Assembly (NCBI RefSeq): GCF_003856835.1
Contig: NZ_CP034145.1
Span: forward strand, 1,674,001 to 1,738,000
Reading direction: 5' to 3'
From: Haloplanus aerogenes
GTDB lineage: Archaea; Halobacteriota; Halobacteria; Halobacteriales; Haloferacaceae
Length of the DNA stretch: 64,000 bases
Part shown: piece after piece, positions 36,112 to 53,085 of the stretch
Layout of the letters: each line of letters opens with the position of its first letter
How positions within the stretch are numbered: the first letter of the stretch is position 1
Translations under genes and position numbers: made by a program
Notes under the pieces: generated by a model
The model's input: the letters and a program-made list of their open reading frames with translations, nothing else
Database searches by the model: none
Told to the model about the DNA's origin: nothing

Positions 36112-37236
36112 TCAGGCGTCGTCGAGGTCCATCCCCGTTATTTCGAAGCGGGCGCCGCCCGCCTCGCTCTCGGTGATGCCGATGGACCAGCCGTGGGCGT
36201 CGACGATTTCCCGAACGATGTCGAGGCCGAAGCCGGTCCCGTTCTCGTTCGTCGAGTAGCCCGCGTCGAACACGTCGTCGCGCTCGGACGCCGGAATCCC
36301 GGGACCGTCGTCGGCGATGTACACGCCGTCGGGCAGTGGTCCGACGATGATGGTTACGCCGGTGTCGCCGTTCGTGGAACCGTGTTCCACGCTATCCCCG
36401 CGAGCGTTCGAGCGGGGAGTGGTCGAGCCGTGCTCGACCGAATTCCGAAACAGATTCTCGAACAACTGGGTCAGTCGGCTGGTGTCGGCGGTGACGGTCC
36501 CGCTCACGTCGACGTGGAGGTCGCTCGCCGGTGCCTCCACGCTCCGCCAGGCCGATCGGGCGATCTCTCCGATATCGACCGCCTCTGTCGCGTCGACGGC
36601 CTGCCCCTCACGGGCGAGGACGAGAAGGTCACCGACGAGTTCCTCCATCCGATCGAGGGCTTTGGCGGCCTCGTCGAGATGCTCGCTCGTCGACGCCGTG
36701 GGTTCGACGTGGTCCAGGCGTCCCTTGGCGACCTGTAACGGATTGCGGAGGTCGTGGCTGACGATGCTGGCGAACCGTTCCAGTCGCTCGTTCTGGCGCT
36801 CCAGCCGTCGCTCCTGCCGGTGTCGTTCCAGTGCGTATCGGATGGCGCGTTCGAGGAGTTCGCCCTCGAGGTGGTCTTTCAGGAGGTAGTCCTGCGCGCC
36901 CTCCTGAATCGACCGGAGCGCCGTCTCGTCGTCGGTCAGGCCGGTCAGGACGACGATGGGAAGCGGTGAAATATCACCGTCGTCGATCCGGTCGTTCAGC
37001 CGCTCCAGCGTCTCGATTCCACGACTGTCCGTGAGGCCGAGATCCAGCAACACGAGGTCGTAATCCGCCGTGGTGAGGTTGTCGACGGCGGCGTCGAGCG
37101 TCTCGACGTGGGTCACCGTTGGAGTGGTGAACGTACTGCTGGTGTCCGATCGGAGATGGTGGCGAATCAGACGCGCGTCACCGGGGTTGTCCTCGACGAG
37201 GAGAACGTGTAAATCGTCCGTGAACTCCGCCCCCAT
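36112..37236 (-). CDS. Receiver-histidine kinase hybrid (REC-HisKA-HATPase)
   Basis: 374 residues, no membrane segment. N-terminal receiver domain (LHVLLVEDNPGDARL, phospho-Asp in LVLLDLGLTDSRG, Lys in YLLKDHL), a coiled linker, H-box FASIVSHDLRNPLQVAKGRL near 172, then HATPase with NLFRNSVEHGS (N-box), ADDGPGIP and GTGFGLDIV. The N-box is followed by an inserted repeat in which SVEHGST recurs. The receiver probably gates the kinase. It starts 2 bp after the upstream response regulator stop. Confidence 0.88.
   Translation of the reverse strand: MGAEFTDDLHVLLVEDNPGDARLIRHHLRSDTSSTFTTPTVTHVETLDAAVDNLTTADYDLVLLDLGLTDSRGIETLERLNDRIDDGDISPLPIVVLTGLTDDETALRSIQEGAQDYLLKDHLEGELLERAIRYALERHRQERRLERQNERLERFASIVSHDLRNPLQVAKGRLDHVEPTASTSEHLDEAAKALDRMEELVGDLLVLAREGQAVDATEAVDIGEIARSAWRSVEAPASDLHVDVSGTVTADTSRLTQLFENLFRNSVEHGSTTPRSNARGDSVEHGSTNGDTGVTIIVGPLPDGVYIADDGPGIPASERDDVFDAGYSTNENGTGFGLDIVREIVDAHGWSIGITESEAGGARFEITGMDLDDA
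36373..36439 (+). repeat. Three perfect micro-hairpins inside the kinase N-box region
   Basis: CGTGGAAC-CGT-GTTCCACG (36373-36391) and GGTCGAGC-CGT-GCTCGACC (36421-36439) are perfect 8-bp stems with the same 3-nt loop. Between them CCCCGC/GCGGGG (36396-36417) pairs around 10 nt. In the protein they encode two SVEHGST units and the linker between. Confidence 0.75.
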
Positions 37237-45003: not shown

Positions 45004-45312
45004 CTACCACTCAGGCGGCTGGAACCCCGACTCCTCCAGCAGCGCCTTCCAGCGCCCCTGCACGCTCAGTCGGGTCACGTCCATCGCCGTCGCGACCGAC
45101 CCCTGTGACCGTTCTTCGCCCGCGATCAGCGCCCCGGCGTAGAGACTCGCGGCGGCGACGGCGGGTTTCGAGCGCTCCTCGTCGGGCACGTTCGAGAGGA
45201 AGAGGTCGACGGCGTTCGAGCGTGCCTCGCTCCCCAGATCGAGGCCGTCGGCCGCGCGGGTCAGGCGGGCCACCCACTCTTCGTTGTCGACCCGGTCGCG
45301 TGCCCGATACAT
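45004..45312 (-). CDS. Truncated TFB-like protein with one cyclin repeat
   Basis: 102 residues. The part RSKPAVAAASLYAGALIAGEERSQGSVATAMDVTRLSVQGRWKALLEE matches the second cyclin repeat of TFB, including its HTH. The zinc ribbon, B-finger and first repeat are absent, so it cannot act as a complete initiation factor. It might bind BRE-type DNA or be a regulator; the small size is not obviously due to decay, since the frame is clean and starts properly. Confidence 0.72.
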   Translation of the reverse strand: MYRARDRVDNEEWVARLTRAADGLDLGSEARSNAVDLFLSNVPDEERSKPAVAAASLYAGALIAGEERSQGSVATAMDVTRLSVQGRWKALLEESGFQPPEW

Positions 45313-45478: not shown

Positions 45479-45562
45479 GCGCGGGTAGCCAAGCCAGGAA
45501 AAGGCGCAGCGCTTAGGACGCTGTCCCGTAGGGGTCCGCCGGTTCAAATCCGGTCCCGCGCA
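45479..45562 (+). tRNA. tRNA-Leu (anticodon UAG)
   Basis: 84 nt class II tRNA. Acceptor GCGCGGG pairs with CCCGCGC at 45555-45561, discriminator A at 45562. Anticodon stem CAGCG/CGCTG encloses the loop CTTAGGA, so anticodon TAG. A variable arm TCCCGTAGGGG and the T arm CCGGTTCAAATCCGG follow. CCA is not encoded. No intron. Confidence 0.95.
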
Positions 45563-45674
45563 CTGACTGAGTTTTCGAGCGAAGCGAGAAAACGAAGGAG
45601 GGAGCAGGAGCGGATTTGAAGCAGACGAGACGAGCGAAGCGAGTCTCGGCCCGGTTCAAATCCGGTCCCGCGCA
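45539..45674 (+). repeat. Duplicated 3' end of tRNA-Leu (putative att direct repeats)
   Basis: The last 24 nt of the tRNA, 45539-45562 (starting CCGGTTCAAATCC, ending CCCGCGCA), recur without change at 45651-45674, offset 112 bp. A perfect duplication of a tRNA 3' end is the usual trace of integrase-mediated insertion. The segment between is too short for an element, so this is a remnant or an empty second site. Confidence 0.8.
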
Positions 45675-45984
45675 TAGCGAGACACGAACGGCGAGCAGAG
45701 CGAGCCGTGAGTGCGAGGAGAACGAACGTGAGAGGCGCATCGAGCTTTTGCGCTGCGGGCTGCCTCCGGTAGCCCTCGGCAAAAGCTCGACCATCGCCAG
45801 AACGCGGAGCGTTCTGGCTGTTCAGCCAGAAATCTTCGATTTCTGGCGACAAAAACACTCCGCGGTCGCTTCACTTCGTTCCGCTCACTCGTCGGCCCGA
45901 GCGCCGCAGGCGCTCGGTGAACGGCTTCGCTCGCGTTCTCCGAACCGCTCGCTTGTCGTTGCTCGTAGAGAGATTGGATTAGCG
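45563..45984. other. Non-coding tract of interlocking micro-hairpins downstream of tRNA-Leu
   Basis: No supportable gene. Perfect stems with short loops: GCCAGAACGC-GGA-GCGTTCTGGC (45796-45818), TCTGGCTG-TT-CAGCCAGA (45813-45830), GCCAGAAATC-TTC-GATTTCTGGC (45825-45847), CCGAGCGCC-GCA-GGCGCTCGG (45897-45917), CGAGCTTTTGC/GCAAAAGCTCG (45741-45789). Two further hairpins share the loop GAGCGAAGCGA: GTTTTC/GAAAAC (45571-45593) and CGAGAC/GTCTCG around 45628-45648. Confidence 0.75.
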
Positions 45985-52461: not shown

Positions 52462-53085
52462 ATGCCACAGGTCACCGTCGACGCCATCGAGGAAGTCGGT
52501 ACGCGGACCGTCGCGCTCGAACTCGAGACGCCCGAAGGCTTCGACGCCGAACCCGGTCAGTTCCTGCTCGTCCGGGCAACCGTCGATGGCGTCGAGGAGA
52601 CGGGCTACTACACGCTCTCGTCGCCGGACGTGGAGGGCACGATGGAAGTGACCGTCGAGTACGTCCCCGAGGGGACGCTCGCGCCGTGGTTGGCCGAGCG
52701 CGAACCCGGCGACGAGATAGAGATCGAAGGGCCGTTCGGCGACGTGCGGTACACGGGCGACGGCGACGCGCTCGTCGTCGCCGAGGGACCGGGCATCGGT
52801 CCCGCCGTGGGGATCGCCGAACGCGCCCAGCGCGAGGGGTACGACGCGACGGTCGTCTTCTGGGGCGAGGAGCCGCCCCACCGCACCCGCCTCGACGCCC
52901 TCGAAGACGGCGGCGCGACGGTACTGCTCGTCGGGTCGCTCGACGAGGCCGCCGACACGCTCGCCGCGGCCGGTGACGCCACGGTGTACGTCTTCGGTTT
53001 CGAGTCGTTCGTCAGGGACGCGAAGACCGTCGCCGACGCCGTCGGCGTCGAGAACGTCCGCGCCGAGAGCTTCGGGGCGCGGTAA
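52462..53085 (+). CDS. FNR-like FAD/NAD(P)-binding oxidoreductase
   Basis: 207 residues. FAD-binding barrel with GQFLLVRATVDGVEETGYYTLSSP and PEGTLAPWLAEREPGDEIEIEGPFG; nucleotide-binding part AEGPGIGPAVGIAERA. Ferredoxin-NADP reductase/benzoate-dioxygenase-reductase-like but without a 2Fe-2S domain and shorter than typical (about 240). The usual RxYS FAD motif is changed to YYTLS. Flanked by two ADHs; may supply electrons to or from a partner ferredoxin. Confidence 0.78.
   Translation: MPQVTVDAIEEVGTRTVALELETPEGFDAEPGQFLLVRATVDGVEETGYYTLSSPDVEGTMEVTVEYVPEGTLAPWLAEREPGDEIEIEGPFGDVRYTGDGDALVVAEGPGIGPAVGIAERAQREGYDATVVFWGEEPPHRTRLDALEDGGATVLLVGSLDEAADTLAAAGDATVYVFGFESFVRDAKTVADAVGVENVRAESFGAR

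Follow-up and report, generated by a model that had tools for sequence, protein, structure and literature searches.

A hairpin element with a spare tRNA 3′ end, apparently undescribed, downstream of haloarchaeal tRNA genes

Mini-hairpins of the d(GCGAAGC) type are extraordinarily stable in DNA, and in the attC sites of integrons the outer arms are formed by the boxes R′′ and R′ and the inner arms by L′′ and L′. Such attC sites are recognised by IntI as folded DNA hairpins (PMC11641012). In archaea, passages of a review of tyrosine recombinases describe tRNA 3′ ends as the preferred attachment sites, with T-stem loops among the sequences used (PMC8371274), and passages of a survey of Haloquadratum describe the mobile repeats MITE, PATE and SMR as short and transposase-free, the PATEs being palindromic near their ends (PMC3119063).

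The tract considered here occupies positions 45563-45984 of a 64,000-nucleotide stretch of the Haloplanus aerogenes genome (the window, to which coordinates refer). Its first part, 45563-45674, is one copy of a repeated haloarchaeal element, in general of ~90 to 140 bases, in which the tRNA tail is followed by a hairpin segment (H1), an inverted T-loop arm (A′), a second hairpin segment (H2) and a new copy (A) of positions 53-73 of that same tRNA. A keyword search of the open literature, subscription journals lying outside its scope, returned no prior description, and a keyword search did not find the element in the Haloquadratum survey (PMC3119063), in the recombinase review (PMC8371274) or in a study of archaeal tRNA-gene fragments. 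The element is thus apparently undescribed. It is conserved, strong and general, and stands on almost half of one organism's tRNA genes within a class of archaea.

Two joined elements in the tract after tRNA-Leu

Stems counted as perfect if they were purely Watson-Crick, 7 bp or longer and closed by a loop of 3-8 nt, and 500 dinucleotide shuffles of the tract served as the null. The tract has four such stems, of 8-10 bp, where the shuffles averaged 0.39 and never exceeded 3 (a ~10-fold excess); three of its stems reach 9 bp or more, where the shuffles averaged 0.036 and gave at most 1. The four are:

45796-45818, perfect stem, loop GGA
45812-45831, perfect stem, loop GTTC
45825-45847, perfect stem, loop TTC
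45897-45917, perfect stem, loop GCA

A preliminary description of this DNA had counted at least seven stems, several of them perfect, at a density above that of random DNA; the excess over shuffles bears this out and four stems are indeed perfect, but the remainder carry mismatches. The stem that it placed at 45813-45830, overlapping both neighbours, is recovered as 45812-45831, which shares arms with both. The folding z-scores that it called for are −5.8 for the whole tract as RNA and −5.2 as minus-strand DNA. Perfect-stem density by itself does not make the tract unique in the window, as a region near 52650-53070 holds six perfect hairpins in 422 bp and exceeds the four reported here.

Two hairpins with unrelated arms (45577-45587 and 45632-45642) have the tip GAGCGAAGCGA, which had been described as one loop shared between unrelated arms. 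The pair exists, but the supposed 11-nt loop is in fact a GAA triloop on a stem of 2 bp that follows a tandem G.A/A.G mismatch step, and a third hairpin of the G.A type with two tandem G.A steps (45683-45713; CAC-GA-ACGGC-GA-GC-AGA-GC-GA-GCCGT-GA-GTG) had been overlooked. The genome scan for this motif grammar, also proposed at the outset, gave 12 G.A-type hairpins on both strands of a 400-kb sample of the same genome (genome-wide counts for the source genome being based on sampled stretches and pattern searches) versus three in the 422-bp tract; 3 of the 12 have a tRNA call no more than 600 bp away. The grammar was rejected as a general trait of intergenic DNA because it is so rare elsewhere. 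A separate hairpin, TCCCCGCGAGCGTTCGAGCGGGGA, at 36395-36418 of the window has near-identical counterparts at two other sites of the 400-kb sample, away from tRNAs.

A coding gene, which would have overturned the preliminary reading, was rejected since none of the four longest ORFs of the tract has a Pfam match. In an Rfam scan tRNA was the sole family, with no family for the hairpin element, and a weak hit to a microRNA, at 21.5 bits against a cut-off of 70, was judged to be chance. The ORFs adjoining the array are a TFIIB-repeat, a YgaP-like and a JAB-domain ORF; a 102-aa ORF with a TFIIB repeat (PF00382) lies upstream of the tRNA at 45004-45312 on the minus strand.

What had been presented as a single tract comprises two unrelated elements joined together, and both the direct and the inverted copy of the tRNA's own 3′ end had been missed. 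The features are, in order:

45479-45562, + strand, tRNA-Leu gene (ARAGORN; Rfam RF00005, 54.1 bits)
45542-45562, + strand, tail A0, tRNA positions 53-73, GTTCAAATCCGGTCCCGCGCA, part of the tRNA-Leu gene
45563-45611, + strand, H1 segment (hairpin call and unit layout)
45567-45597, H1 hairpin, 10 Watson-Crick pairs, two tandem G.A steps, GAA triloop
45611-45620, − strand, A′, inverted tRNA T-loop and 3′ T-stem, CGGATTTGAA, the reverse complement of TTCAAATCCG (inverted-repeat search)
45621-45653, + strand, H2 segment with hairpin 45626-45648, CGAGACGAGCGAAGCGAGTCTCG
45654-45674, + strand, A, second copy of the tRNA-Leu tail, 21 nt exact (direct repeat, 0 mismatches)
45675-45739, + strand, probable decayed second unit, with hairpin 45683-45713, ending in GCGCA as the tRNA does
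45740-45790, + strand, separate dispersed palindrome u2, 12-bp outer arms TCGAGCTTTTGC/GCAAAAGCTCGA and an inner GCTGCC/GGTAGC hairpin
45794-45849, + strand, 56-bp double hairpin u3, TCGCCAGAA..TTCTGGC TGTTCA GCCAGAA..TTCTGGCGA
45850-45960, + strand, rest of the dispersed element, including perfect hairpin 45897-45917, 93% identical to congener G009 over 104 bp

A′ is exact in the own-genome census, and the direct-repeat block that contains A has 24 matching bases. Folded as DNA, A′-H2-A gives a z of −4.4 on the plus strand and −2.8 on the minus strand. As the cassette sits at the mature 3′ end and ends with a new tail copy, the tRNA gene stays intact. The comparison with relatives that had been suggested found that G009 is 172 bp shorter at this tRNA-Leu: both the first unit and 45675-45739 are missing, and the flank (TCGACC) resumes directly after the GCGCA of the tRNA end.

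The rest of the tract, 45740-45960, is a separate, composite, dispersed palindromic element. It is present in 7 of 12 genus genomes, and no plasmid match was found for 45735-45960. DNA folding gave z values of −4.3/−5.0 for u2 and −6.9/−7.2 for u3. G009 lacks u3 at the orthologous site, and G004 has it in reverse orientation within an unchanged context. Relatives of u3 (L368, L371, L373, L375 and L379) occur in 1-2 copies in a few genomes of the family, with the arms GCCAGAA/TTCTGGC conserved and complementary tips variable; the relative at L371 appears inside reading-frame-like DNA.

Occurrence, edges and exchange of the element

In the source genome, the gene's own tail recurs no more than 900 bp downstream at 19 of 45 tRNA loci, and 16 loci show the full layout; for own-tail copies in two congeners the counts are 21 of 43 and 20 of 44. 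In the cross-isotype control the tails of other tRNAs matched in 3.5% of cases. About 16 isotypes carry the element. Copy number of the own tail per tRNA ranges from 0 to 3 among the three congeners, and tandem arrays reach four units at constant spacing (111 bp in G049). Two other arrangements were encountered: at a tRNA-Phe (L053, G000) three exact tail copies have as spacer a different, longer palindrome, CTTTTTGC...GCAAAAAC, which is also found after tRNA-Pro and constitutes a second type of tRNA-tail element, and on a smaller contig of G009 (G009:C3:161109-162673) ~11 tRNA-like matches are crowded into 1.6 kb, possibly a tRNA array of a plasmid or virus.

The edges of the copy are sharp. 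Over tRNA positions 53-73 (G53 to the discriminator base 73), identity between copy and tRNA is 0.85-1.00 in 129 complete cases, many of which came from a pattern search that itself prescribes some of the layout. At the first base outside, it falls to 0.79 on the left and 0.58 on the right, and further out it is mostly 0.12-0.5, except for 0.91 at position 48. Given this drop at both edges, the copy includes neither the base that precedes it nor anything past the mature 3′ end. The edges are the safer part of this count because the right-hand ones lie outside the pattern. A′ covers positions 54-62 and fades at 63-64; the acceptor strand, outside A′, is as conserved in the copy as the T-loop, which is expected if the copy must be able to replace the tRNA end.

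The 9-bp arms of A′ and A are paired in 1951 of 2070 cells. At the variable R57, A′ is matched to its own tRNA (T-A 135 and C-G 73, versus 22 mismatched), and A′ follows the local tRNA at variable positions elsewhere as well, for example at tRNA-Lys (A′ GGAGTTGAA, tail TTCAACTCC), tRNA-Gly(ccc) (GGAATTGAA and TTCAATTCC) and tRNA-His (AGAATCGAA and TTCGATTCT). Across an unbiased set of 57 units, (T/G)CAGGGA...GACCGTG is the commonest H2 base, and 28 of 57 H1 segments start with TTTT, CTTC, TTCT or TTTC directly after the tRNA.

A strict consensus, GATTYGAANCAGGGA-N5-35-GACCGTGGTTCRAATC, was found in 11 of 12 genomes of the genus; within the class it occurs in 31 of 59 genomes, representing 20 of 32 genera. 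In other classes of the phylum it was found in 0 of 101 genomes, the same search recovering 11 of 19 own-class genomes, and a reversed-pattern control had zero matches in the genus, class and phylum searches. A scan of 84,980 species genomes gave at least 120 matching stretches; among the matches listed, the 80 titles are haloarchaea or haloarchaeal-type MAGs, one of them labelled only 'Euryarchaeota'. A called tRNA on the same strand lies just upstream of 149 of the 158 strict units, with a median of 50 bp from tRNA end to A′. A relaxed search left 11 outliers: four with enough flank adjoin a tRNA missed by ARAGORN, three are further array units, and the others border a tRNA remnant or the end of a contig; none of these outliers was a unit several kb from its tRNA, as true att sites of an element would be. 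A viral origin was rejected, the strict unit occurring in one of 2.9 million viral contigs, where it adjoins a host-type tRNA-Glu. As judged from these searches, the element appears haloarchaea-specific, being both class-wide and class-limited.

Orthologous tRNA sites of congeners are found empty or filled, precisely to the base, with size differences of 115 bp (Arg-tcg), 101 bp (Glu-ctc), 133 bp (Thr-ggt), 98 bp (Leu-caa) and 495 bp (Pro-tgg), and their flanks align from base 1-3 after the tRNA end at 83-95% identity. The modules of the units are shuffled. In G009, H2 is identical at Ala-cgc, Ala-ggc and Asp-gtc, with H1 of the Asp unit only 0.47 alike; at Ser-tga of G006 and G009, H1 is 0.97 and H2 0.62 alike. 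One H2 module is thus shared by several tRNAs or replaced at a given tRNA between species, with A′ and A in each case matching the tRNA they stand beside.

A probable structure of the DNA strand and its possible origins

In the tRNA stems of the same loci, used as positive control, G.T pairs number 62 and A.C pairs 5. The element stems hold 52 and 47 (43 and 32 in A′/A, 7 and 12 in H1, 2 and 3 in H2); with G.T not in excess over A.C, unlike in the tRNA stems, the helices are not kept via G-U wobble, the intermediate by which structured RNAs keep theirs. A first pooled count (G.T 68, A.C 21) looked RNA-like, and its excess, tentatively put down to the conserved T.G that adjoins A′ within the H2 base, was gone once H1, H2 and A′/A were separated. 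Mismatches point to the tRNA-sense strand: the tandem mismatches of H1 are GA/AG in 78 cases versus TC/CT in 6, and of the 228 mismatches counted in H2 tips 173 are G.A or A.G, with GNA triloops in 39 of the 62 tips of the mismatch-bearing class. To a second class of H2 tips, with pure Watson-Crick stems and pyrimidine loops (TTC, TTT, TCT), the strand argument does not apply. T stretches are the main haloarchaeal terminator (PMC7237163), thus after a T-rich H1 start the tRNA transcript is expected to end before A′-H2-A.

That the element acts as RNA, as a structured trailer co-transcribed with the tRNA and controlling its termination, 3′ processing or stability, is quite unlikely. The specificity for the tRNA-sense strand would suit such a trailer, as would compensatory stem changes between genera (for example in tRNA-Val H1 of Natrialba, Natronococcus, Natronorubrum and Natrinema) and the ability of hairpins to terminate transcription in Haloferax volcanii (PMC7237163). 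It is disfavoured, however, by the wobble counts and the T-rich start after the tRNA, and further by the half of tRNAs that have no unit, by the variability among congeners and by the missing Rfam family. The structures are real, recurrent across the class and under constraint, and we read the element as a probable structure of the tRNA-sense DNA strand. Of the two origins offered in the preliminary description, template switching at hairpins or an RNA-level structure, the first is half right, as templated copying or recombination of DNA fits better, and the evidence speaks against the second.

For 45563-45674 itself, a non-coding, DNA-level 'tRNA-tail hairpin cassette' exchanged at the tRNA T-loop is a reading that we hold as an even proposition. 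The tRNA-sense strand, once single-stranded during lagging-strand synthesis or in a transcription bubble, would fold, and A′ would pair with A and so re-create the T-loop duplex. Recombination or templated copying would then take place at the T-loop core, with its left edge at G53/T54, the constant start of the sequence copy, and cassettes could be added, removed or swapped with A′ and A kept matched. A tyrosine recombinase recognising the folded strand is the leading guess for the enzyme; neither a recombinase nor an excised form of the cassette was found in this analysis. It weighs against the cassette that it carries no gene and that no units were seen several kb from their tRNA. Moreover, A′ is tRNA-specific at positions 57 and 59, where a carried-over cassette should mismatch, so that in-place rewriting or old vertical descent is needed. 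Precise loss could also come about by ordinary recombination between the 21-bp direct repeats, and the growth of tandem arrays by unequal exchange. A special process is then required only for the first gain, at an empty tRNA, which recombination between those repeats cannot produce.

A by-product of replication, in which template switching and slippage at hairpin-prone tRNA tails give rise to the inverted and direct copies with no dedicated enzyme or function and H2 hops between tRNAs via microhomology at the near-universal TTCRAATCC core, is conceivable but rather improbable. It would account for A′/A matched without wobble bias, for the replacement of H2 between A′ and A with H1 retained, and for the tandem arrays and stable hairpins; a neutral by-product should not, however, keep the 14 bases of the H2 base (T/G)CAGGGA...GACCGTG across families (31 of 59 class genomes), the insertion edges are constant, and the 101 genomes of other classes have tRNA T-loops too, yet none has the unit. 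Very unlikely is a graveyard of attachment sites, that is, attR scars left behind when ordinary elements that had integrated at the tRNA T-loop were deleted. The copy does start at the T-loop edge, passages of the recombinase review have archaeal elements favouring tRNA 3′ ends, T-stem loops included (PMC8371274), and putative integrase-like genes, recognised by eye from translation, abut tRNA-Leu in two genomes (G002 and G003; L010, L014). Scars of different elements, however, should not share the H1-A′-H2 layout in all families; in G002 the tRNA-Leu element appears to own a longer att repeat reaching towards the anticodon, with the hairpin units seemingly beyond the far att copy, as host sequence (L032); and the single viral contig with a strict unit has it next to a host-type tRNA-Glu. 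Chance, or a low-complexity artefact of a GC-rich genome, for which the common occurrence of GAGCGAA-like words near these tRNAs might be cited, has been refuted by the shuffles and by the cross-isotype and reversed-pattern controls, and is scarcely credible.

Comparison with known systems

The tips GAGCGAAGCGA hold GCGAAGC inside tandem G.A pairs and so resemble the d(GCGAAGC)/cGNAg mini-hairpins; the latter are known mainly as a curiosity of DNA stability and as an aptamer tool, unlike the recurrent genomic part seen here. The 56-bp u3 resembles REP/REPIN (BIME) palindromes in pairing two related hairpins whose arms are conserved and whose tips vary, but has only 1-2 copies per genome. CRISPR arrays combine identical repeats with unrelated spacers, and here the intervening segments share the H1-A′-H2 layout and the H2 base. 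With the MITE, PATE and SMR repeats, as described in parts of the Haloquadratum survey (PMC3119063), the cassette shares being short, transposase-free and haloarchaeal; those repeats are dispersed, whereas the cassette is tRNA-bound and carries a tail copy (149 of 158 strict units are beside a tRNA, the rest forming no clear exception). Nor are there terminal inverted repeats of the MITE kind, the left edges varying (TTTT, CTTC, TGAT ...) and the right edge being GACCGTG.

The attL/attR sites of tyrosine integrases have in common with the element a direct repeat of the tRNA 3′ end and a reconstituted gene. Unlike them, the element has ~75-115 bp between the repeats, with neither genes nor an integrase and with an inverted T-arm inside, and its layout is identical at ~16 isotypes across the class. 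For annotation this means that a partial tRNA copy in a haloarchaeon need not be the scar of an integrated virus.

Like attC, the element is a one-strand hairpin site by its sequence, with paired outer arms (A′/A corresponding to R′′/R′), mismatched inner pairs (L′′/L′) and a variable terminal hairpin, whose tips vary on a conserved CAGGGA/GACCGTG base; like integron cassettes, it forms tandem arrays at a fixed acceptor, with the copy edge at G|TT. It differs in that the acceptor is a tRNA gene, the arms are specific to each tRNA, no gene is carried and the occurrence is limited to haloarchaea. Its arms, GGATTYGAA and GTTCRAATCC, agree with the RYYYAAC/GTTRRRY core sites of attC only in GTT, and no IntI-type integrase was found among the genes beside the tRNA-Leu array. 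By this analogy, haloarchaea might own a system for recombining single-stranded DNA hairpins, comparable to integron attC and of separate origin, with tRNA acceptors and gene-free cassettes of 100 bp that bring a spare tRNA end, although this is unlikely. The element provides DNA hairpins by the hundred, a natural collection in which stems, loops and mismatches show constrained variation, together with clean empty and filled sites, and makes testable both base-precise gain and loss at archaeal tRNA ends and the use of folded single strands as recombination substrates in archaea. Among known systems, integron cassettes are the closest in anatomy and att-site scars the closest in position, each departing from the element in at least one defining trait.
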